Positions 1,690-15,433 of a DNA stretch of 36,279 bases are shown here, piece by piece (the stretch's first letter is position 1; each line of letters starts with the position of its first letter). The notes under the pieces are model-generated. The model ran no database searches and was not told the origin of the DNA. It worked only from the letters and a program-made list of their open reading frames with translations. Origin of the DNA: Candidatus Woesearchaeota archaeon (GTDB lineage Archaea; Nanobdellota; Nanobdellia; SCGC-AAA011-G17; JAGVZF01); the NCBI GenBank assembly GCA_018302785.1, contig JAGVZF010000015.1:1-36279 (forward strand), in the 5' to 3' direction. The position numbers were made by a program, and so were the translations under genes.

Positions 1690-1725
1690 TAATACAAAAA
1701 AAGAAAAAAGAGATTTTAGTCTCTT
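1690..1725 (-). terminator. Putative hairpin plus poly-T terminator of the 1716-3482 gene
   Basis: On the minus strand AAGAGA-CTAAAA-TCTCTT followed by TTTTCTTTTTTTG; overlaps the stop codon. Confidence 0.45.
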
Positions 1726-3482
1726 CGCTTTTTGAATATTAATATAATAAAGTATAGTGCTAATACAATTAAAACAATATCAGCTATAACCCAAAAAGCT
1801 GTAGAAGCTCCATTTCCAAATAATCTTGAAGTTGGCAAGAATGTAGTACTTCCACTTACTTCATTATTATCTTCTTCACTAGGAGTTTCAGTTGGAGTAG
1901 TTTCTTCTTCATTTCCATCATTTGTAGGTTCTTCAGTTGGAACTTCTTCACTAGGGGTCTCTTTACTGCACTGCCCCACAGCTAGAAATACAGTATCACT
2001 TACAGTTTCTCCACTGCCATAAGTTACCTCAACATCAATTGGATAGCTTCCTTCTTTAGTAGTTGGAGGTACAACAAATTCAAGTCTTTTTGTAGCCTTA
2101 GCATCTTCATCATCCTTGAATTCCTTTAATGTAAATCTTTCTGTAACTTCTCTGATGTTTAATACAGCATTCTTTACTGTTATAAAAACATCATCTTGGT
2201 CATCTCCACCAATATTCTTAACCTTAACAACAGTTCCAACAGTTTCTCCACAAATTGCAGCTGCAGGAGTTAAAGTTGCACTTTCTAATTCAACATCATC
2301 GTCTTCTAATTCGATCTTTAAATCTACTGAATCAACAATACATTGTTCATTTTCATTATCGTCATCAAAGGCTTTTATGAATAAAGTCAAAATATCCCCA
2401 TCATCAACGTCATTAGGATCACTTGGGATATTTAAGCTAAATTCAAAGTCGAAATCATCATTTTCATCTAAATTTTCAGTTCCACCGTCTTCACTTTCTA
2501 ATTCATCTCCGCTTTCATCTAACAAGAAAGCTTCAACAGTTACATCATAATCTTGGTCTCCATTATTGTCAACATTAACAGTTATATCTACTGTTTCTCC
2601 TGGTTTAAATTTATCATTATTATCAGGGTCTTGTACATCAATACTTAAAGCATTTCCAACAACTCCATCACTGCAAATGTCTTCTACAACATCAAAAGTC
2701 ATTTCTAATGTATCTGAAAATTGGTTATTTTGAGTTGATGCAGTCATTGTTCCAGTATATCTTTTTAATTCTTGATCTTCAGGAACATCAAAAGTAACTT
2801 GAACAGTAACTTCACTATTTGCCTGTATTGTTGGGTTTGAAGGAGTAAATCTAATATCTACTATATCTCCATCATTATCTGTGTATTGTGCAGTTGGAAC
2901 ATTAAAACTTACTGTTAAAGGAGTGGTTTCTCCATTTTTAATCTTAAATGAATGTCTGTCATTTAATTCTCCTCTTTGTAAAGTCCTAAGTCCTAATACT
3001 GTTAAATCTCTATTACTTAAATCTACTATTTGAATTCCTACCCCTTGAGTTACACTAACTGTATAAGGTAATGTTGCTGTAGTACTAGGTGTATTAACAT
3101 CAGTTACAGTTATAATTCCATTATAATTACCAAAAACAGCATTACTTGGCACATTTACAGTAAATGTAATTGCCTTAGTTGTTGGTACTGTAGGAGTACC
3201 TACCTCAATATTTGTAGGATTTGTAAATACTATATTACTTATAGGAATAGTTGCTCCTTGAGGTCCAGTTAAAGCAGTGCTTGAGAAATTAACACTAGTT
3301 GCTGGTCCTTTATTTTGTAATGTAAAACCAACAGTTAATGTTTGACCTACTCTCCCATTTGGACTTGTAGCATTTATAATGTCTATGTTTCCAGTTGGAT
3401 TATTTGCATAAACAGAAGCTACATTTAAAGAACTAGACAATACTATTAAAGTCATTAATATTGTAAAAAGTATATTTTTCAT
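1716..3482 (-). CDS. Secreted, membrane-anchored surface protein with NEW3/CARDB-like Ig domains
   Basis: 588 aa ORF; N-terminal signal peptide; repeated beta-sandwich-like acidic domains; Thr/Glu/Pro-rich stalk; C-terminal TM plus basic tail (FWVIADIVLIVLALYFIILIFKKRRD). Confidence 0.8.
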   Translation of the reverse strand: MKNILFTILMTLIVLSSSLNVASVYANNPTGNIDIINATSPNGRVGQTLTVGFTLQNKGPATSVNFSSTALTGPQGATIPISNIVFTNPTNIEVGTPTVPTTKAITFTVNVPSNAVFGNYNGIITVTDVNTPSTTATLPYTVSVTQGVGIQIVDLSNRDLTVLGLRTLQRGELNDRHSFKIKNGETTPLTVSFNVPTAQYTDNDGDIVDIRFTPSNPTIQANSEVTVQVTFDVPEDQELKRYTGTMTASTQNNQFSDTLEMTFDVVEDICSDGVVGNALSIDVQDPDNNDKFKPGETVDITVNVDNNGDQDYDVTVEAFLLDESGDELESEDGGTENLDENDDFDFEFSLNIPSDPNDVDDGDILTLFIKAFDDDNENEQCIVDSVDLKIELEDDDVELESATLTPAAAICGETVGTVVKVKNIGGDDQDDVFITVKNAVLNIREVTERFTLKEFKDDEDAKATKRLEFVVPPTTKEGSYPIDVEVTYGSGETVSDTVFLAVGQCSKETPSEEVPTEEPTNDGNEEETTPTETPSEEDNNEVSGSTTFLPTSRLFGNGASTAFWVIADIVLIVLALYFIILIFKKRRD

Positions 3483-3590
3483 TTTAACCCCCCTTAAAAG
3501 GTTTATAAACTGTTGTTATTGGACAGTTATGACTAATATTTAAAGGTTTTGGTATTATGTTACTATTTATAAATAGTTAAAAATAGAAAG

Positions 3591-3600
3591 ATTTATATAT
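3591..3600 (+). promoter_or_regulatory. Archaeal TATA-like box of the DGR target gene
   Basis: ATTTATATAT about 30 nt upstream of the ATG at 3629, preceded by purines (AGAAAG); spacing fits a very short leader or leaderless mRNA. Confidence 0.45.
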
Positions 3601-3628: not shown

Positions 3629-4336
3629 ATGGCCAGCATAACTAAAAACCAAAATTTAAGAATAAAAGAAGGAAGAACTGAGTTAACTACGACTCATCAA
3701 GGTCAAGATTTAACTTTTGTACATCCTTCTTATGGTCCTGATACTTATGCTAATGTTGGATCTCAAATAGAGCAAGCTGGTTTAATAAGGCCAACAATGT
3801 CACAAATTACTTCTTTAGCTCATACGTCATGTAATTCTAATGATAAATATAGTAAAGAAATACAAAAAATAATGAAAGATAATTGGCTTTGGGGATTTAC
3901 AGGAACTCTATATGTTCCAAATAAAGGAGCTTATATTCAAGAAGATCCTCAAATAAGAAACGGAATGCCGTTTATGGATGAATCAGATTTAGTTAGGAAA
4001 TTAGAAGCAAATGATCCTAATGTAAGATTTGTTCCTTTTGGCTTTAAAACAGAAGAAATGACTCCAATACAACTAGCAAATAATGATTATGTTAAAGCTT
4101 TAGTTGGAGAAGAAGGAGCAGAAAAACTAGCAGAAATATCAGATAAACATAGATATAAACCATATTTATACAGTTTTGAATCTGTAGATGAACCATTAAC
4201 AAGAGTTTCCGCTTTGAATTCCAATTGGAACTTAGATGACAGGCTTAATGTCAATGGCAACGATCGTGGCGACGACAGGAATGGTTTTTCGTTCGGGGTA
4301 AGTCGTACTGGCGAAGCCAGTCGCGTCGAAAAATAA
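3629..4336 (+). CDS. DGR target (variable) protein with C-terminal VR-encoded region
   Basis: 235 aa ORF; C-terminus ALNSNWNLDDRLNVNGNDRGDDRNGFSFGVS is encoded by a near-repeat of the downstream TR with adenine-specific differences; no obvious signal peptide. Confidence 0.88.
   Translation: MASITKNQNLRIKEGRTELTTTHQGQDLTFVHPSYGPDTYANVGSQIEQAGLIRPTMSQITSLAHTSCNSNDKYSKEIQKIMKDNWLWGFTGTLYVPNKGAYIQEDPQIRNGMPFMDESDLVRKLEANDPNVRFVPFGFKTEEMTPIQLANNDYVKALVGEEGAEKLAEISDKHRYKPYLYSFESVDEPLTRVSALNSNWNLDDRLNVNGNDRGDDRNGFSFGVSRTGEASRVEK
4207..4300 (+). repeat. DGR variable repeat (VR)
   Basis: 94 bp aligning without gaps to 4511-4604; 87/94 identical; all 7 mismatches at positions where the TR copy is A (6 A-to-G, 1 A-to-T). 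Confidence 0.93.
4307..4321 (+). other. Hairpin/cruciform immediately downstream of the VR
   Basis: ACTGGC-GAA-GCCAGT perfect 6-bp arms, 6 nt after the VR end; extendable by CG/CG with one bulged T (4304-4323). It contains GCGAAGC, a known unusually stable DNA mini-hairpin. Confidence 0.65.
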
Positions 4337-4369
4337 GCTTTATTAATAACTTATTCTTTTCAAATATGT

Positions 4370-4393
4370 CTTAGTAAGTTGCAACTAACTAAG
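4370..4393 (+). other. Inverted repeat between target gene and TR
   Basis: CTTAGTAAGTT-GC-AACTAACTAAG: 11-nt arms with one mismatch. Confidence 0.4.
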
Positions 4394-4510
4394 GCTACAT
4401 GCTCATTGATTGCGCTTGTAAGCCATAAAATTCAATCATAATATCTAGTAAGTTTTTGCTGAAAAATAAAATGATGGTGATTTACTTTTAATTAATGAGC
4501 TACATAACTG

Positions 4511-4604
4511 TTCCGCTTTGAATTCCAATTGGAACTTAGATGACAGGCTTAATGTCAATGGCAACAATCATGGCAACAACAGGAATGGTTATTCGTTCGG
4601 AATA
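4511..4604 (+). repeat. DGR template repeat (TR)
   Basis: Non-mutated partner of the VR, located between target gene and RT; AAC/AAT-rich core (GGCAACAATCATGGCAACAACAGGAATGGTTAT). Confidence 0.93.
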
Positions 4605-4628
4605 GCCTTAGTTGCTAAGACATCAAAT

Positions 4629-5775
4629 ATGAAAACTTACAATAATCTTTATTCTGAAATTGCTTCATTCCAAAATTTATTTTTAGCATATAACAAAGCT
4701 AGAAAAGGAAAAACAAGCTAGAAAAGGAAAAACAACAAGGAAATATGTAATAGATTTTGAAAAAGACTTATTAAATAACCTTCAGCAACTGAGGGCGGAA
4801 TTGTTAGATTATTCCTATAGGCCAAAACCACTAAAAACTTATATTATAAGAGATCCAAAAACAAGAAGAATTTCCAAATCTCATTTTAGAGATAGAATTG
4901 TGCATCATGCTATTTGTAATATTATAGAACCAATTTTTGATAAGTCATTTATATATGATTCTTACGCAAATAGAAAAGGTAAGGGCGCTTTAAAAGCATT
5001 ACAAAGACTTGATCAATTTAAAAGAAAAGTAAGCAGAAATGGAAAAATCAATGGTTGGTTTAATAATAACCAAATAAAAGGTTATTGTTTAAAAGCTGAT
5101 ATTAAACATTATTTTGAAGAAGTAAATCACAATATTTTGTTAAATGCAGTCAAAAAGAAAATAAAATGTAATAAAACTATAGGTCTAATAAAGAAAATTT
5201 TGACTAACTATGCTAGGGGGGGAATTCATGAAAAAGGAATGCCCCTAGGTAATTTAACATCACAGTTTTTCGCTAATATTTATCTAAATGAGTTAGATAA
5301 ATTTGTTAAGCATAAAATAAAAGCCAAATATTACCTAAGATATGTAGATGATTTTGTAATTCTGCATAATTCAAAAGAGCAATTAATAACATGGAAAGAA
5401 GAAATAGATATTTTTCTTAAGAATGAATTAAAATTAGAACTTCATCCAGATAAGTCAAGAATCATACCATTGTCTAAACCAATCCCATTTGTAGGTTTTA
5501 GAATATTTAATTACTTTAAATTATTAAAAAAATTTAATAGAAAAAATATTCAAAGAAAATTAAAAAAGCTTCATGACTTATTTTTAGAAAAAGAATTAAC
5601 TTATGATAAAATTTATGAGATATTACAAGGATCATTTGCCTACATGAAACAAGCAAATACATACAATTTAAGAAAGAAAATTTATTTTAAAATAGAAAAA
5701 GTCTTTTCAAAAGAAGTTTCAAGTTTAGAAGTAAATAAAACCATTAAGTACTTTAAAAAATTAAGTAAAAATTAA
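4629..5775 (+). pseudogene. DGR-type reverse transcriptase, frame interrupted by a 19-bp tandem duplication
   Basis: N-terminus MKTYNNLYSEIASFQNLFLAYNKARKGKT in frame 3 (stops at 4719-4721) continues as TRKYVIDFEKDLLNNLQQLRAELLDYSYRPKPLKTYIIRDPKTRRISKSHFRDRIVHHAICNIIEPIF... in frame 1. LGNLTSQ (5245-5265) matches the DGR RT [ILV]GxxxSQ motif; YVDD at 5341-5352. Confidence 0.9.
4696..4735 (+). repeat. Exact 19-bp tandem duplication (about 2.1 copies) inside the RT N-terminus
   Basis: AAGCTAGAAAAGGAAAAAC at 4696-4714 and again at 4715-4733, followed by AA; 19 = 3x6+1, so it shifts the frame by one. Confidence 0.95.
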
Positions 5776-6361: not shown

Positions 6362-6421
6362 GTTATATATAATGTTATATTTTATTATATATAAAGTTAT
6401 CTATTTTTAAAAGTGAGAAAT

Positions 6422-9400
6422 TTACCTTTTTCTAAATAAATGTAATTTCAGCATATAAGCAATTCCAATTAACATTAGTATATTAATTGCAGCTAAAAAT
6501 ATTACTGGTTTGCTTTGTCCTGGAATAGGTTCATAAAATATAATCTTATTAATTTCTTCTTTATTTACTTGTTTTTTAACTATTTGACTATTTCCGCTTT
6601 TTACATTAATGGTATTTGTTTTCTTATTAGATTTACTATCAACTTTTACATTATTACTATTTCCATCACTTTTTATTGAACTTACTCCACATTCTTCAAT
6701 TCTAAGTTCAACTTCTTTACTATCAACTTTATTATTATACTCTAAATTAACAGTAAACTTGTAAGTGCCTTCTTTAGCATCATTAAGATTTAAGTTAATA
6801 TCTTTACTTACACTATTATCATCAGAATCAAAAGCTTCAATTTCAAATTCTTCACTAGCTTCATTAATATTCAATTCACTATTTGTTACCTTTAATATAG
6901 CGTTTTGATCATCTTTTCCGTAATTTACAATTTTAACAGTTAAATCAGCATTTCTACTGCAGCTTAATTCAAGTGGAAATATTTCTGCATCATTAATTCT
7001 TAAATCATCATCTTCAATATTTAATTTCAAATCAATAGTCTCTTCTTGACACTCTACATTTTCTTTTCCATCCTCATAAGCTTTAACATACAACTTTAAT
7101 TTTTCATCCTTCACATCTTTAGGATCTTTTGGGATTTCTAATTCAATTTCAAATTCTTCACTAGTTTTCTTCTTAATTCTATTATTATCATTATCATCTT
7201 CTAATTCTTCATTATCACTATATAAAATTGCTTCAACATTGACTTCTTTATCTACATCATTATTGTTTTTCACATCAATTAATACATTTACTTTTTCTCC
7301 AAATGAAAATTCATCATTTTTATTTGGGTCTTTAATATTTATTTTTAAATTTCCAAGTACTCCATTACTACATTTATTTATATTATCTACATTGTTATTA
7401 TTAACATTTCTACTACATTGTATTGAACAACAAATTCCAGAATCACTGCTCTGTAAATTATTACCATTACAAACTTCATTTACTGTACATAAATCTCCAC
7501 TTAATTGACTACATGATCTTAAACTTCCACTCCCAATTTTATATGTTGAAAATCCATTTACATCAAAACTTAACATCCTAGAATCAGAATTATATTTAAC
7601 ATTACTACATATATTATTTGGGCATTCTTGATTTATTCTATTAAAATCAGAAGTAAATTCATTAACATAATAAATAGTAGGAATCCCACTGAATATTAAT
7701 CCATAAAGTGTTATAGTAGCCTTTTGATTACTAAATTCATTATACTTTAATGTATTAATTCCAATAAGATAAGGCAATAATAGTATATTACTATCTAAAT
7801 CAACAACATTACTTAAATCAATAGGCCCTTGTAAACTAATTTTACCAATGCCTTTCTTTTCTATTACAACATTTTGCATTGAAACTAATTGATTTCCATC
7901 TAAATCAAAGTTTGTTGTATCTCCATCAAAATTATTTGTGATAGGATGATCACTTACAATTAAATCCCAAGTATTTGATATTGTAAATTCATTATCTGAT
8001 ATTTGTACTTTAACCTTATGAGTTTTTACCTCTCCATCAGCTATAAACACAAAATTATTTCCATTCAATTTTTCAACATCGTCAACAAACCATTTTACAT
8101 TTAAATTGTCATTTTCTATATCATAAGCATCAATATTAAAATTAATATTTTCAACTTCAGAAATTACTTGATTTAATCTGGAAGGAATAAAATTCCTAAT
8201 TCTAGGTGCATCGTTTACAGCATTAACTTTTACTGTAAATTCATTAGATTCTACAATAGCATTAGAAGCATCTTTTGCAACAATCTTAATATTTAATTGT
8301 CCATTAAAATCTTCTTTTGCATATAATCTTCCTATATTATTTGTAGCATCAATTAATATATTATCATTTCCTATTACAGAATAACTTAATGCTTCATTAT
8401 CAGGATCACTAAAAAAGTTAGATAATTCTAAGTTTATACTAGAATCTTCATTAAATTCTTGTTCATTAACAGTTCCAGTAAATACAGGAATTCTATTAAC
8501 ATTATTTACTGTAATTTTTACTTGTTTTGTTGCAGTTAAAATTCCATCACTAGCTTGTATATTAACAAAAAATATCCCAGCATCATTATAATTAGTTTGG
8601 TAACTAAATTTATCTCCATTCTTTACAAATCTATTATCATCAATACTTAATATTATATCACTCCCATCAGGATCATGTGCATTTACATCAATTAAAACAA
8701 CTTCATTCTCATTAACAACAATATCATTAATAGTCTCAATTACTGGAGGATAATTCATATCTACTCTAAATACAAAATCAACAGGTGCAAAAGCCTCTAC
8801 ATATTGGTCCTTACATAAGATATTCCATCTGTAAATTCCATCAGGGATATCTGATACAGAAAATCTTCTCTCTACATTATTTCTTGTACTTAATTCTGCA
8901 AGTCTCTCAAGTTGAGTTGAATTTGAATTATTCAAATTACTATAAAAATAACATGTAAAACTACTAGCTAAATTATCAGTAGCCAAATAAGAAAATGATA
9001 ATTCATTAGTTTCGCTAAAATAATTATCTACTGGATTTAATAAAGTAACTACTGGTGGAATTAAATCAGCATCATTTGAAAATTCTTTTGTTGCTTTCTG
9101 TAAATTCCAGTCTGTATTAATATTACTATCATAACCATTAGGTTTTCTGCTCCAGGTAAATTCATTATCTTGTTCATCTCTCATTACTATTGTTTCATCT
9201 ACTAGCTCATCTCTATTATTATATAATTTTAAAGTTTCTTCATCGTCATTTAATAAGGAACTATTTAAAGTTAAAACTTTATAACTATTTGCTTCTAATG
9301 TAAATCTAGTAATATCTATTCTATTATTCTCTTTATCTTTTAAATACCATGAATTAACTTCTACACTTATATTGTTAGGATTATAAAGTTCAATCCACTC

Positions 9401-10915
9401 ATTTCCTTCATCTAGCCCACTTGGATTTAATTCAACTTCATTAATAACTATTTTTGGCTCAACAATAACTATAAATGTATCACTATCGCTTAAAGATCCA
9501 TCACTTACTCTTACACTAGAAGTATATGTTCCTATATCTTCTAATCTTGGGATCCAGACTCCATTCTGGTTAAATGGATCTGTATAACTAAATGTTAAAG
9601 TATCATTCTCAACATCTGTAGCCCTAGGATTTAATATTAAGGTGTTAGTAGCAACTACTCTTAAAGTATCAATATCATCTAATTCTGGCCTGTCATTAAT
9701 TGGTCTTACATTAAAAACAACAGCATTGCTATTAGTAGAAGCTCCTTTAATATCTGTTGCTGTAAAAATAATACTATTATTTCCAAAGAAATTTAAATAT
9801 GGTTTAAATGTAACTTTATGTTCATCATTAATTATAACATCTATATTTGTATTCCCACTAGCACTAAATGTTAAAGGATCATTCTCATAATCTGCAAAAG
9901 AATCTAAGTCTATAATATTAATTAATTGTCCATCTTCATTTATATTAAAAGGAGTTGGGAAATTATTTCTTAATATAGGGGCATCATTTCTACAATTTTC
10001 GTCTATATTGTTTATAATTTCTCTTGCATTAGGATTTATATTTTCATTACTATCATCACAATCTAGACCACCAACAATTGTGGAACTAAAACCATCTTCA
10101 TCTAAATCATTTAAATCGCTTCCATTACAATCTTGATCTATATTATCATAAGGAATTTCTTCTGCATCAGGATTTATATTTGCATTTCTATCATCACAAT
10201 CTAAGTCACTAAAGAATCCATCATTATCAAAGTCTTCTCCATTTAAAGTCCATAATATAGAATTCTCAAAAAGTTTTTTAGCATTTTCAGTCCAATATTT
10301 ACTTTTTGTAATACCAAAGAATGTATTTCTTCCTTGAGTTGTTTTTCCATTTAATAAAATAACTCCTTTTGGAGCTGCTGCTATAACACTATCAAAATCA
10401 CTTTGCATTGTAGAATCAATCTTTATCATTCTAATAGATGTATATATTTTTCTTAAATAAAAGATTGGAATCGCAATTGAATTTTCACAACATGTAGTAT
10501 ATACCTGAATTTGTGTTGGCATATTTATATTAATTACATGATTAGGATTAATATTCTTAATTTTGATTGGCTGACTACCACCTAATTGAACAGCATTCCT
10601 ACTTGAAAAACCAAAATCATCTACATATTCTGGGTTAACTACTAATGAATTATGTGAATTTACAATAGTTGCGTTTAACTTAGTAAAAGTATCATCTCCA
10701 ATTAATAACATATTATATACTGAGAGATTTATTGTGTCTAAACTTGAATCTTCAACAACATCATAAGTTAGCCCTAATCTATTTAAAGTTTGAATAAATT
10801 CTTGATTAAGTCTAGCATCATCTCTAACAATATAAGCAACATCTTTTGCAAAAACACCAATACTAATTAAAGAAAAAATTAATACATAAATTAGAAAGAT
10901 ATTTGTCTTTTTCAT
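6422..10915 (-). CDS. Giant multidomain surface protein (putative metal-binding motif repeats, Ig/cadherin-like repeats, lamin-tail domain, shared C-terminal module, TM anchor)
   Basis: 1497 aa; signal peptide; DxDxDGFxxxxDCDDxNxxINPxAxEIxxxNIDxxC repeats; IVINEVELNPSGLDEGNEWIELYNPN...WYLKD lamin-tail-like domain; C-terminal TM IFLAAINILMLIGIAYMLKLHLFRKR. Confidence 0.85.
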   Translation of the reverse strand: MKKTNIFLIYVLIFSLISIGVFAKDVAYIVRDDARLNQEFIQTLNRLGLTYDVVEDSSLDTINLSVYNMLLIGDDTFTKLNATIVNSHNSLVVNPEYVDDFGFSSRNAVQLGGSQPIKIKNINPNHVININMPTQIQVYTTCCENSIAIPIFYLRKIYTSIRMIKIDSTMQSDFDSVIAAAPKGVILLNGKTTQGRNTFFGITKSKYWTENAKKLFENSILWTLNGEDFDNDGFFSDLDCDDRNANINPDAEEIPYDNIDQDCNGSDLNDLDEDGFSSTIVGGLDCDDSNENINPNAREIINNIDENCRNDAPILRNNFPTPFNINEDGQLINIIDLDSFADYENDPLTFSASGNTNIDVIINDEHKVTFKPYLNFFGNNSIIFTATDIKGASTNSNAVVFNVRPINDRPELDDIDTLRVVATNTLILNPRATDVENDTLTFSYTDPFNQNGVWIPRLEDIGTYTSSVRVSDGSLSDSDTFIVIVEPKIVINEVELNPSGLDEGNEWIELYNPNNISVEVNSWYLKDKENNRIDITRFTLEANSYKVLTLNSSLLNDDEETLKLYNNRDELVDETIVMRDEQDNEFTWSRKPNGYDSNINTDWNLQKATKEFSNDADLIPPVVTLLNPVDNYFSETNELSFSYLATDNLASSFTCYFYSNLNNSNSTQLERLAELSTRNNVERRFSVSDIPDGIYRWNILCKDQYVEAFAPVDFVFRVDMNYPPVIETINDIVVNENEVVLIDVNAHDPDGSDIILSIDDNRFVKNGDKFSYQTNYNDAGIFFVNIQASDGILTATKQVKITVNNVNRIPVFTGTVNEQEFNEDSSINLELSNFFSDPDNEALSYSVIGNDNILIDATNNIGRLYAKEDFNGQLNIKIVAKDASNAIVESNEFTVKVNAVNDAPRIRNFIPSRLNQVISEVENINFNIDAYDIENDNLNVKWFVDDVEKLNGNNFVFIADGEVKTHKVKVQISDNEFTISNTWDLIVSDHPITNNFDGDTTNFDLDGNQLVSMQNVVIEKKGIGKISLQGPIDLSNVVDLDSNILLLPYLIGINTLKYNEFSNQKATITLYGLIFSGIPTIYYVNEFTSDFNRINQECPNNICSNVKYNSDSRMLSFDVNGFSTYKIGSGSLRSCSQLSGDLCTVNEVCNGNNLQSSDSGICCSIQCSRNVNNNNVDNINKCSNGVLGNLKINIKDPNKNDEFSFGEKVNVLIDVKNNNDVDKEVNVEAILYSDNEELEDDNDNNRIKKKTSEEFEIELEIPKDPKDVKDEKLKLYVKAYEDGKENVECQEETIDLKLNIEDDDLRINDAEIFPLELSCSRNADLTVKIVNYGKDDQNAILKVTNSELNINEASEEFEIEAFDSDDNSVSKDINLNLNDAKEGTYKFTVNLEYNNKVDSKEVELRIEECGVSSIKSDGNSNNVKVDSKSNKKTNTINVKSGNSQIVKKQVNKEEINKIIFYEPIPGQSKPVIFLAAINILMLIGIAYMLKLHLFRKR

Positions 10916-10916
10916 T

Positions 10917-11585
10917 TTAACTTCTTTTTAAATAATAAAAACCCCCTAATATTGCAACTATTACTATAAGAATTATAAACGAAATAGTAAAACCATTAAC
11001 TTCAAAATTAATTTTAGAAGTTTCATTTCCAGTAATTTCATTATTATTTGTAGTTTCTTCTTTACCTTTTTTATCTAAAATATTTTTAGGATTAAAATTG
11101 AATCCACTATCATTTGTATTATTTACATTATTAGAATTACTATTTCCATTGTCATTAACATTATTATTCTTTGGAAGATCTCCTTCTGCAATAGCTTTTA
11201 TTATCAAAACAGAGCTTAAACCAACAGCTTGTCCTTTTTTAGGTGTAAAAGTTACAACAATTCTTATTTCATAATTTCCTGACTCTTTTAAAGCAACACT
11301 ATACCTTGCATCTTTACTTTCATTAGTTTTAAGACTAAATTCCTTATCTTTAATAGTCACTAAATCTTTATATTCACCAGATGCCTCAAGATTAATATCC
11401 ACATCTTCATTATTAACATTACTTACTTTAATAGCTCTGTCTATTATTGTAGGAGATTCTTTCATCTCTACATTAATTATTGCCTTTGCATTACCTAAAG
11501 AAGCTGTAATAGCATAGACATGGCTAGAAAATAAGCTAAATAAAATCAATCCAACCAAAAAAACACTATATTTGTTTGCTATCAT
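10917..11585 (-). CDS. Small secreted/anchored surface protein
   Basis: Start adjusted to ATG at 11585 (ORF track uses upstream TTG 11603); signal peptide, one beta-rich domain, N-rich linker, C-terminal TM (ISFIILIVIVAILGGFYYLKRS). Confidence 0.72.
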   Translation of the reverse strand: MIANKYSVFLVGLILFSLFSSHVYAITASLGNAKAIINVEMKESPTIIDRAIKVSNVNNEDVDINLEASGEYKDLVTIKDKEFSLKTNESKDARYSVALKESGNYEIRIVVTFTPKKGQAVGLSSVLIIKAIAEGDLPKNNNVNDNGNSNSNNVNNTNDSGFNFNPKNILDKKGKEETTNNNEITGNETSKINFEVNGFTISFIILIVIVAILGGFYYLKRS

Positions 11586-11589
11586 TTTA

Positions 11590-11692
11590 TTATCACTATA
11601 CAATTTAATATTTAATAATCACTATAATGTGATAAATAATATACAGTATATATAAATACATTATTGTGTTATAATAATTGTGATACATTATA
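11590..11692. promoter_or_regulatory. Cluster of TATCAC/GTGATA-type motifs upstream of the 10917-11585 gene
   Basis: TTATCACTATA, ATCACTATAATGTGAT (palindromic arms), ATTATTGTGTTATAAT, TAATTGTGATACATTA within about 100 bp; similar CACTATTGTGATAA near 15346. Confidence 0.35.
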
Positions 11693-11746
11693 TATATTAC
11701 AGAACTAATTTAATCTTAAATAAAAATAAAATTTAATAAATTAAAA

Positions 11747-12859
11747 TTAAATTGTAAAAGAAGTGCTTTGTGCTACAGTATTTCCTGCCTTATCTATTAC
11801 TTGTAAATCTATATTATGTATACCTTCAATAAAAGACTTTCTAGCAATACAATGATTGTCTCTTAGTCTACTGCATAATGTTCTCCATCTAGGTCTTGAT
11901 TCATTATGATCATAATAATCAAGACTATCAAAATTAGCTTCATTTATTAAAATATCAAAGTCAACATTTCTTCCATCAATCTCATAATTTAAAGCTTCAA
12001 TTACTGGCATTTGCGTGTCTACACTAATACTCACTCTCCTAGTTTCATGAGAAGAATCAGAAATATCAATTAAATGTGCCCAGTATTCTATAATTTGTCC
12101 ATTAAATAAATTTAAGTTTATGTTTGTATTACAAGTATGCTTTCCTCTATTTTCTTGGCAATCATTTAAATTAACTTCATGCATCAAATATCCATTTATA
12201 GGATTTCCATAATGTATCATTAAACTTTCTGGATTTTCTTCTCTAAATTGAATCATAAAATTTCCTGAAGTTAGTCCTCTTTTGGGTTCAGTTTTTATTA
12301 TCTTTGGTTTAATACTATCAACATAAAAACTTATATTTAGATAATTAGTATTCCCTTCGGGATCATTTGCTTTAAAGGTAATGTTATTTAAACCTTCTTT
12401 AAAACTTCTTCTTCCTAGATAACTAGAACAATCTGTACATAGTCTTGTCCATCTATCTCTCCCATTTATATTATCTTGATAATATAAATCTCCAATTTCA
12501 TTAATTCTTATATCTATATTTATAACTCTTTCATTATAAACTTCATTATTTTCTGGAGAATTTAAATCTATTATTGGAGCTTCTCTATCAATACTTGCAT
12601 TAGCCAAATATGAACAGCTTAATCCTAGACTATTGCATTGGTTAATATTAGCAGGACAATAAACACCTCCCCCTAAATTATTTGTACAATATTGGCATCC
12701 AGAATTACTATCACAAGTTCTATCTGGTATACTAGGATTACACATTGAAAATCTTACAGTTTCACCTCTATTTAAACATAAAAGTTGATATTCAGCAAAA
12801 GCTATTGGTAAAACTAAAAGGATTGCAAATAAACTAATAATCATAAATTTAATTTTCAT
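11747..12859 (-). CDS. Secreted Cys-rich protein with repeated Ig-like domains
   Basis: 370 aa; signal peptide; N-terminal CTNNLGGGVYCPANINQC cysteine cluster; two copies of a xRxRWRTLC...C..R+SFxEGxxNI...DxxGNT module. Confidence 0.78.
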   Translation of the reverse strand: MKIKFMIISLFAILLVLPIAFAEYQLLCLNRGETVRFSMCNPSIPDRTCDSNSGCQYCTNNLGGGVYCPANINQCNSLGLSCSYLANASIDREAPIIDLNSPENNEVYNERVINIDIRINEIGDLYYQDNINGRDRWTRLCTDCSSYLGRRSFKEGLNNITFKANDPEGNTNYLNISFYVDSIKPKIIKTEPKRGLTSGNFMIQFREENPESLMIHYGNPINGYLMHEVNLNDCQENRGKHTCNTNINLNLFNGQIIEYWAHLIDISDSSHETRRVSISVDTQMPVIEALNYEIDGRNVDFDILINEANFDSLDYYDHNESRPRWRTLCSRLRDNHCIARKSFIEGIHNIDLQVIDKAGNTVAQSTSFTI

Positions 12860-12902
12860 TATAACATACTCCTTTTTATTATAAAATTTAAATTAAAAAA
12901 TA

Positions 12903-12930
12903 AAAAATAGGGCTTTCGCCCGTTTTTGCA
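12903..12930 (-). terminator. Hairpin plus T-tract terminator of the 12932-14035 gene
   Basis: Minus strand AAAAACGGGC-GAAA-GCCCTATTTTTTA immediately after the stop codon. Confidence 0.6.
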
Positions 12931-12931
12931 T

Positions 12932-14035
12932 TTATATGGCCTCTCCCCAGAAGAATATTGCTCCTGTGTCAAAGTCACCATTACATGGTTCTGGTAGACT
13001 TAATTTAAAGGTTATTGCCATCTCTGCACCTGGAGCCAAGATATTACCTGGGTAATATGGTCCTACGTGTGGGAATTGAAGGATTTCTGCATTGTCATAG
13101 AATGGTGATGGGTCATTGAATCCATGTCCATATTCTATATTTACATAACCTTCAGCATCTGAATCCCTGGTAACACTTCCAGCTGTGTTAATTTCTAAGT
13201 CATCAGCAGTTGAATAAGCTCCATTAGTTACAAAGTATCTAAATGCTCCTAAGCTTAACTGGTTTGTTATTGGGCACATTGCTCCACTGCTTGAACTATC
13301 ATAGAAATCAGTACCTGTTATAAACATATCAAGTAAGACTCCTGATCCAGCATCTGCATCATTTCCAACTAACAATGTTTCTGAATAAGCGTCTGTTCCT
13401 GGTCTTACATCATCAAATGTCATTTCTCCATCAATAGATAGAGCGACAATAGGATTTAAGAACCAAAATTCATTCTCATCCATTGTTCCAGTTAATCCGT
13501 CATTATCAATTGCTTCTACTGTTATCCAGAATTCTCCATACATGCTTTCTGGAGTTTCAACAGTCAAAGTACATGTGTATGCATCCATTGTGTCAGCATC
13601 AAATTCATGTAATCTTTCTTCAAGAATTCTTGCATTACAAGATCTTGGTAAATCACTACCATCCCTTACATATTGTCTTTGACAGTTTACTTCTATAGGG
13701 TTACCTTCCCCTTGAGAGTCTCCAACAGTTCCATAGACATCAGCTACTTTTTCAATTCCATTTTTATCCATAACTAATATATCCCATTGGATTTGCTCTC
13801 CTTCGAAAGCATAGTTGTTTATTCTTTCAACTAACTCTTGACCATCTCTGCTAATTCTTCCGTACTCTACAGCATCGTCAAAAACTACTCTACCGTCACA
13901 CATCCACACTTGTGGTGGAAAATCTTCTGTGTTAATGTTAGGTGTGATAGGTACTCCTTGACTTACAGCTAGAGCACTAGGCATTACTGAAGCCACTAGA
14001 ACTAGTACAACTAAACTTACTAAAATCTGTTTCAT
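12932..14035 (-). CDS. Abundant secreted / S-layer-like protein candidate
   Basis: 367 aa; signal peptide (MKQILVSLVVLVLVASVMPSALA); no C-terminal TM; acidic; visibly higher GC and more varied codons than neighbours; own terminator. Confidence 0.75.
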   Translation of the reverse strand: MKQILVSLVVLVLVASVMPSALAVSQGVPITPNINTEDFPPQVWMCDGRVVFDDAVEYGRISRDGQELVERINNYAFEGEQIQWDILVMDKNGIEKVADVYGTVGDSQGEGNPIEVNCQRQYVRDGSDLPRSCNARILEERLHEFDADTMDAYTCTLTVETPESMYGEFWITVEAIDNDGLTGTMDENEFWFLNPIVALSIDGEMTFDDVRPGTDAYSETLLVGNDADAGSGVLLDMFITGTDFYDSSSSGAMCPITNQLSLGAFRYFVTNGAYSTADDLEINTAGSVTRDSDAEGYVNIEYGHGFNDPSPFYDNAEILQFPHVGPYYPGNILAPGAEMAITFKLSLPEPCNGDFDTGAIFFWGEAI

Positions 14036-14270
14036 ATTCTTTTACCCTCCATAATTTTTATATAATCGTTCCAACTTTTAGTTGGTTGTCTACTAAAAGA
14101 CCATAAACAAGTTTTGTGAGTAATCTTCTTTGTCATATTATTCCTTCTTAATTGGTAATTGTCATCCCTATACTGTAATCTGTTATTTAAATATTATCAT
14201 CATCAAGTGTGTATATTATATTATCTAGATTAAAAATGACAAATTGCAATTATTATAGAGTAGCAATATA

Positions 14271-15266
14271 TTAATCTCTAATAATCACAATAATTAGAAA
14301 TATTAATAATAGCAATAAAACAATATTTGCTAATATTAAAGTAAAAAAGTTGCTTTTATTTTCCAACACTACATCTTCAATAGGCTTTGTAGGCATGTTA
14401 GATTGTGATACAAACAAGACTTTATCTTTTTTAACTTTATCAGTAACTTTTTCTTTACATTCAACAAATAATCCAACATTTTCTGATTCTCTTTCACCAT
14501 CAAATATAACTTCTACATCCATTAAATAATTTCCAGTCTCTACATTATTTGGAATGTCTAAATATAATTTTGCAATATAATTATCATCTTCTTCTCCAAA
14601 TTTATCTAAATCAAACTCATTACTTAATTTATTAATATTAAGTATATTATTTGAAGCTTTAACTCTTACATCTTTAAGTTTTCTCTCTCCAATATTATTT
14701 ACCTCAACAACTAATGTACTTGTAGTTCCACAATCAACTTTAGAAGGTAATAAATTAACTTTTTCTATATCTACTGCTTTATTTTCTAATTCAAGATCTA
14801 AATCAACAGATCCTTCTTCACAAGCACCACTTTCACTATTTTCATCAAAAGCCTTAATAAATAATATAAATTGATCATTATCATCTAATCCTCTACTTTT
14901 TTTAGGCACAGTTAAATCAAATTCATATCTTTCATCGTCTCCTGGACTTAATCTTTCATCATCAGAGTCTTCTGCTTCAATTGTATTATCTTCATCAACA
15001 TTATATAAAGAAGCTTCAACCTTAATATCTCTAGTTCTATCACTTCTATTTCTAACTTTAACTTCTATATTTATAGTATCTCCAGGCTCAAAATTATCAG
15101 AATTATCAGGATCTTTAATTTCTAATTCTAAATTACCAGTTTCCCCATTAATACATTCATCTAAGTCTTTTTCATTATTATTAGCTGCATAAACACTATT
15201 AATTAAAAAAAATAATAAAAAAATAAAAACTAAACCTTTAAACTCAAAACGTTGGGGCATGTTCAC
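14271..15266 (-). CDS. Secreted, anchored surface protein sharing a module with 1716-3482 and 6422-10915
   Basis: 331 aa; CINGETGNLELEIKDPDNSDNFEPGDTINIEVKVRN...DLDLELENKAVDIEKVNLLPSKVDCGTTSTLVVEVNNIG; C-terminal TM (FFTLILANIVLLLLLIFLIIVIIRD). Confidence 0.8.
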   Translation of the reverse strand: MNMPQRFEFKGLVFIFLLFFLINSVYAANNNEKDLDECINGETGNLELEIKDPDNSDNFEPGDTINIEVKVRNRSDRTRDIKVEASLYNVDEDNTIEAEDSDDERLSPGDDERYEFDLTVPKKSRGLDDNDQFILFIKAFDENSESGACEEGSVDLDLELENKAVDIEKVNLLPSKVDCGTTSTLVVEVNNIGERKLKDVRVKASNNILNINKLSNEFDLDKFGEEDDNYIAKLYLDIPNNVETGNYLMDVEVIFDGERESENVGLFVECKEKVTDKVKKDKVLFVSQSNMPTKPIEDVVLENKSNFFTLILANIVLLLLLIFLIIVIIRD

Positions 15267-15433
15267 CTCTTTTTAACCATAAAGTAGTCTTATCATAAAA
15301 CTACTCAAAGTTACTAACAATAATTCATTTAAATATATAAACACTATTGTGATAAGAAATCTAAATTTGTTATTATAATATTTAAATAATACTAATTCAA
15401 AAAGATTATAAATAATCTATAGCTTAAAAGTTT

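Follow-up and report, generated by a model that had tools for sequence, protein, structure and literature searches.

Phase-variable mutagenesis suggested by frame breaks and slippery tracts in the reverse transcriptase genes of DPANN diversity-generating retroelements related to a nanoarchaeal-type cassette

The best-matching described system for the locus studied here is the nanoarchaeal DUSEL4 type of diversity-generating retroelement (DGR). In the part of its description drawn on here (Paul et al. 2015, PMC4372165), IMH TGGGGT is set against IMH* TGGAAT, and a hairpin with a GRA triloop lies within the target gene. Our window, the whole stretch of 36,279 nucleotides analysed (contig JAGVZF010000015.1, Candidatus Woesearchaeota archaeon), contains IMH GGGGT, IMH* GGAAT and a GRA-triloop hairpin within the target gene. 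The DGR identity proposed in the initial annotation is supported by the VR/TR pattern, RT family, target fold, IMH and hairpin, and the locus is securely a genuine DGR of the nanoarchaeal (DUSEL4) type, carried by a tiny DPANN archaeon. Among named records, MAGs of Nanoarchaeota, Woesearchaeota and Pacearchaeota come closest. Taking all the evidence together, we consider it likely that this DUSEL4-type DGR has had its RT switched off by a duplication and that its relatives practise phase-variable mutagenesis.

The cassette runs from target through VR and TR to RT, entirely on the + strand, as first proposed. VR (4207–4300) and TR (4511–4604, +) align over 94 bp without gaps, and the seven mismatches each fall on a template A. 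The initial annotation was right on that point and counted too many mutations: the last two mismatches (4297–4298, GG in the VR and AA in the TR) make up the fixed difference between IMH and IMH* published for nanoarchaeal DGRs, so the VR proper (4207–4296, +) holds five mutations, at 5 of its 27 template adenines. With those two uninformative, the earlier chance estimate of about 2 in 10,000 for seven gives way to 0.0018 for all five remaining changes falling on A. The IMH, CGGGGTA (4294–4300, +), is paired with CGGAATA in the TR (IMH*, 4598–4604; PMC4372165), and when set against 48 other VR/TR pairs from relatives, nearly every archaeal cassette was found to have a VR ending in GGGT and a TR ending in GAAT. 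The codon changes in the VR (N>D, H>R, N>D, N>D, Y>F) all lie within its 3′ half, and its share of mutated adenines is the smallest among 100 VRs compared. The ten AAY codons of the TR allow about 2.7e15 protein variants, and a stop codon is impossible. The target gene also contains, downstream of the VR, the hairpin ACTGGC-GAA-GCCAGT (4307–4321, +; z -3.2). A pattern with every template A left free matched only the VR and TR in the window and nothing in 100 shuffles, and in 49 VR/TR pairs the check on related cassettes came out in favour of a DGR, the differences being almost all at template A. In L039 (2183–3600), L047, L048 and L049, a single TR is common to several VRs in adjacent target genes.

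The target gene (3629–4336, +) encodes 235 residues with a C-terminal C-type-lectin-like domain. Its sequence found no match in Pfam, NCBIfam or PDB, including a sequence profile against PDB, and neither a signal peptide nor a transmembrane segment was evident by eye. The AlphaFold model has a mean pLDDT of 69; Foldseek alone gave the fold no name (best E 0.68), and VIA-align placed the model on the nanoarchaeal DGR target AvpA (5ioo_A) with Z 15.8 and rmsd 3.0 over 185 aligned residues, the next row reaching 5.9. From this model, the assignment to the AvpA-like, C-type-lectin type of DGR target appears settled well enough. AvpA (5ioo; PMC5006420) shares the fold over those 185 residues, and the VR is at the C terminus in both proteins, although identity over the structural alignment is 14%.

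The RT matches Pfam RVT_1 (E=3.4e-25) and PHROG 1423 (E=2.4e-104), and it carries the LGNLTSQ and YVDD motifs claimed for it earlier. Its best PDB sequence match is the Bordetella phage DGR RT 8ub7 (E=2.5e-32), and the top fold matches of its model are 8ubd, 8ubf and 8ub7, whereas the NCBIfam group II model scores 146.9 bits, far under its 300-bit cut-off. A group II intron or retron identity, the outcome that the initial annotation said would count against a DGR, was therefore rejected, because the DGR RT ranks first both by sequence and by fold. A viral origin was likewise rejected, as far as scans with narrow patterns reach: an RT scan of viral contigs returned only distant relatives (41%), the target alignment returned none, and two scans found no tract joined to motif 4.

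An avd or HRDC accessory gene is present in many DGRs, not all. No avd gene was seen between target and TR, as had been noted before, and no ORF of at least 60 aa lies there except a frame crossing the TR. That space is occupied by an RT-16 RNA (Rfam RF03019; 4369–4508, +; 99.8 bits, E=3.6e-15), immediately 5′ of the TR. RT-16 was found in nearly all scanned archaeal DGR loci, with RT ON or OFF alike, and it ends within a few bases of the TR in almost all archaeal cassettes where both were located. The three bacterial loci scanned (L072, L073 and L090) yielded no RT-16, nor did the RT-less locus of the genus-mate G076 or L046. In these systems, which show no avd, RT-16 would probably supply the DGR template RNA with its structured 5′ portion, a likely role for an RNA family known in Rfam by number only.

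In this assembly the RT frame is broken near its N terminus by a duplication. The initial annotation began the gene at TTG 4801, a start that we have to withdraw; the natural start is ATG 4629, which lies in another frame owing to a perfect 19-nt tandem duplication, AAGCTAGAAAAGGAAAAAC twice (4696–4714 and 4715–4733; 4696–4733, +), that shifts the RT frame by +1. The natural 5′ end of the gene (MKTYNNLYSEIASFQNLFLAYNKARKGKT; 4629–4721, +) encodes an N terminus, MKTYNNLYSEI..., that is kept in relatives, and meets a stop after the duplication. The rest of the gene (4734–5775, +) is open to its stop and includes LGNLTSQ (5245–5265) and YVDD (5341–5352). Because the duplication shifts the frame, this copy of the DGR is probably off, a reading from the sequence that bears on activity and not on DGR membership. 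Loss of one 19-nt copy would restore the frame. Both halves of the gene show dN/dS of 0.11–0.16 against the sister L010, which suggests that the break is probably recent. Among 163 RT genes, the window copy is the only one with a tandem duplication of a 13–40-nt unit. Shortly before GMPLGNLTSQ, the disordered loop holds a G7 run (5216–5222, +) that is in frame with the sequence following it; this run is below our 8-unit tract threshold and, unlike most tracts, is not followed by CGA. Since this tract is short and in frame, the cassette would be off for another reason; one isolated tandem duplication may simply reflect decay.

The same genome carries a second, complete DGR (L058, G000:C4; 4154–4990 and 2724–3938, - strand) with an intact RT, its own TR and VR, and a different target. 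Its TR and VR differ by 15 A-changes, two of which lie in the IMH, and by nothing else. No remote VRs for either TR were found in the genome outside the two cassettes. The second DGR is flanked by NusG-like and ribosomal protein L11-like genes, and a PIN-like gene adjoins it, as a VapC gene adjoins the window DGR. Large surface-type proteins with C-terminal hydrophobic segments flank the window DGR on the minus strand (1716–3482 and 6422–10915), the first with weak CARDB-like matches, and glycosyltransferase-like genes lie further along, past them. Window positions 1696–3599 and 6418–15415 are collinear with G076. The stretch of G076 between these flanks holds different target-like genes, of which one has a clear VR-like end, and so the site appears to exchange DGR modules. 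Neither RT nor VapBC is present at the orthologous site in G076, and no RT was detected in that genome, which is 89% complete. Target-like genes with VR-like ends occur in G076 both at this site and elsewhere; those beginning MPIDDYL... are at L136 (G076:C9; 4478–5227, 5230–6048 and 1801–2523) and L152 (420–2446). A second copy of the G076 VR-like sequence was considered as a TR and rejected, as it proved to be the end of another VR-like gene.

Many relatives have RT genes split into two frames at one place, with G or GA runs before GMPLGNLTSQ. These tracts, like the hairpin, the RT-16 RNA, the frame break and the second DGR, were absent from the initial annotation. Our census took in 163 distinct RT genes, drawn from the order, the class and named genomes, with a tract defined as a G/C run of at least 8 or at least six GA units; those found were G8–G12 or (GA)6–13. 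Tracts were borne by 36 of the 163 genes, about 22% among the matches listed. Twenty-nine of the 36 fall at residues 176–202, which make up 7% of the length (P=6e-27), in the disordered loop before GMPLGNLTSQ and motif 4, and minor sites lie near residues 249 and 309. The loop is the low-confidence stretch 141–147 of the RT model, and a change of tract length in such an unstructured loop should be tolerated. The RT genes hold 27 G8+ tracts in 163 kb, compared with four G8+ or C8+ runs in 529 kb of flanks. G9+ runs occurred in 24 of 25 whole genomes, mostly selected for carrying tracts, and in most of the 24 the sole run was within a DGR RT gene; G315 and G321 have two such runs each, all in DGR RTs. 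A fairer comparison is that of runs of at least 9, with 26 in the 163 kb of the RT census and 12 non-RT runs in 24 Mb. CGA directly follows 21 of the 27 G8+ tracts; among 689 short G runs, 10 have it. After the tracts, the CGA mostly continues as CGAAC or CGAAG, even in different loops, and is similar to the apex of the hairpin in DGRs. One rare long G tract outside an RT gene, at L275 (G331:C4, 1501–1511), is followed by CGAAG and perhaps lies upstream of a gene start, and at L267 (G321:C19, 1501–1511) the tract of another DGR RT is C11 on the coding strand.

The loop tracts leave the RT gene ON in five cases, shifted by +1 in eight and by -1 in 16 (24 OFF), in sequences that are all consensus assemblies, mostly MAGs, so that run lengths of G9–G12 may be off by one. 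Frame breaks were found in 28 of the 36 RT genes with a tract and in 8 of the 127 without (P=2e-17); the excess of OFF states above two thirds was not significant (P=0.08). On a FastTree phylogeny of the RT, tracts are scattered, with 26 changes, at least 10 of them forced by well-supported branches. Sister genes occur in different states, as in L196 (G10, off) and L217 (G9, on), or L158 (-1) and L166 (+1). Twenty-six of 27 OFF RT genes contain no further stop. Both halves of OFF genes are conserved, and downstream of the break the L158–L166 pair has dN/dS of 0.07, a rough value because synonymous sites are near saturation and the ratio averages over all the time since the two genes diverged. 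VR adenines are mutated at 0.59 in OFF cassettes and 0.52 in others, and other VR/TR differences per site amount to 0.010 and 0.009, respectively. The relatives, sampled at one genome per species, show two features of contingency genes: an enriched coding tract, and ON and OFF states in related genes.

From these comparisons we think there is a good chance that the DPANN DGR mutator is a phase-variable contingency gene, in which recurrent G or GA tracts in one loop would switch hypermutation through heritable changes of frame. As in known DGRs, the adjacent RT would copy an RNA comprising RT-16 and TR, making errors at adenines, and the resulting cDNA would replace the VR in the C-type-lectin-like target, guided by the IMH and the GAA-loop hairpin. 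Slippage in the G or GA tract would turn the RT on and off, so that many cells in a population would be frozen and a few would be mutating. The case for such a switch is strong for the class and weak for the window itself.

A different reading takes the broken RT genes for dying pseudogenes, with tracts and duplications as products of decay and the window cassette as a recently dead DGR. The window VR, the least mutated of the 100, would fit it, as would the DGR-like target genes that stand without an RT at the orthologous site of G076. Decay, however, would not explain why long G or GA tracts sit in the same loop in numerous lineages, or why most G9+ runs of these genomes lie in the DGR RT; the OFF genes have no other stops, their dN/dS is low and their VRs are A-mutated, and tracts in frame also exist. 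We therefore regard decay as unlikely. For the window only, the duplication might be an artefact of assembly or of a minor variant, with the DGR on, given that the genome is known from a single consensus sequence with a contamination estimate of 6%; this has a small probability, since a perfect 19-nt tandem copy is atypical as a short-read error and a VR with so few mutations is in keeping with a less active cassette.

The CGA that follows most G8+ tracts and few short G runs would suit a recoding signal, with slippage of the ribosome or RNA polymerase on the G run giving a small, constant supply of full-length RT. Against this, +1, -1 and in-frame states are all found, and GA tracts, which are no simple slippery site, fill the same loop; we hold recoding to be improbable, and the mixed directions tell against programmed frameshifting, whether -1 or +1, accounting for the pattern by itself. 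Very improbable in our judgement is a two-protein RT divided at the loop, whose second part would be translated from the conserved ATG in GMPLGN. Such a division would suit breaks that mostly share one site and the purifying selection on both halves, but 119 of the 127 tract-less RT genes are intact in one frame with the conserved Met there too, the frame relation varies, and a slippery repeat would be needless at a split site. The frames, the scatter on the tree, the VRs, the selection and the position in the loop favour a reversible switch over decay, recoding and a split protein.

How DGR mutagenesis is restrained is, to our knowledge, an open question. Continuous rewriting by a DGR would erase useful variants. 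If our reading is true, a slippage switch in the RT provides a simple restraint that needs no regulator, in very small genomes, and amounts to archaeal repeat-mediated phase variation whose target is evolvability and not a surface trait. Surveys that require an intact RT frame will miss some such systems. We recognised no description of RT phase variation in the portions of the DGR literature consulted; a mention in the 2017 survey of DPANN and CPR DGRs is possible.

The comparison with known systems places the locus as follows. With the DUSEL4 DGRs, as far as the part of their description used here extends (PMC4372165), it shares TR-to-VR transfer beside the RT, IMH and IMH*, the GRA-triloop hairpin in the target gene, several DGRs per genome, and RT-less target genes; it differs in that the window RT is frame-broken by the 19-nt duplication, and that part of the description does not mention tracts in RT genes. 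With the Bordetella phage BPP-1 DGR (8ub7 and others; PMC3240598) it has in common the family and fold of the RT, A-specific VR/TR differences, an IMH and a hairpin. In contrast to BPP-1, the window has no Avd, an archaeal chromosome in place of a phage, an RT-16 RNA 5′ of the TR, and a GAA triloop. The tracts of the related RT genes resemble those of phase-variable contingency genes, in the portion of the account consulted (PMC11868660), in being coding tracts found in three frames, scattered on the tree and recurrently gained and lost. Whereas the genes switched in that account are surface antigens or methylases, the gene that would be switched here is an archaeal targeted mutator.
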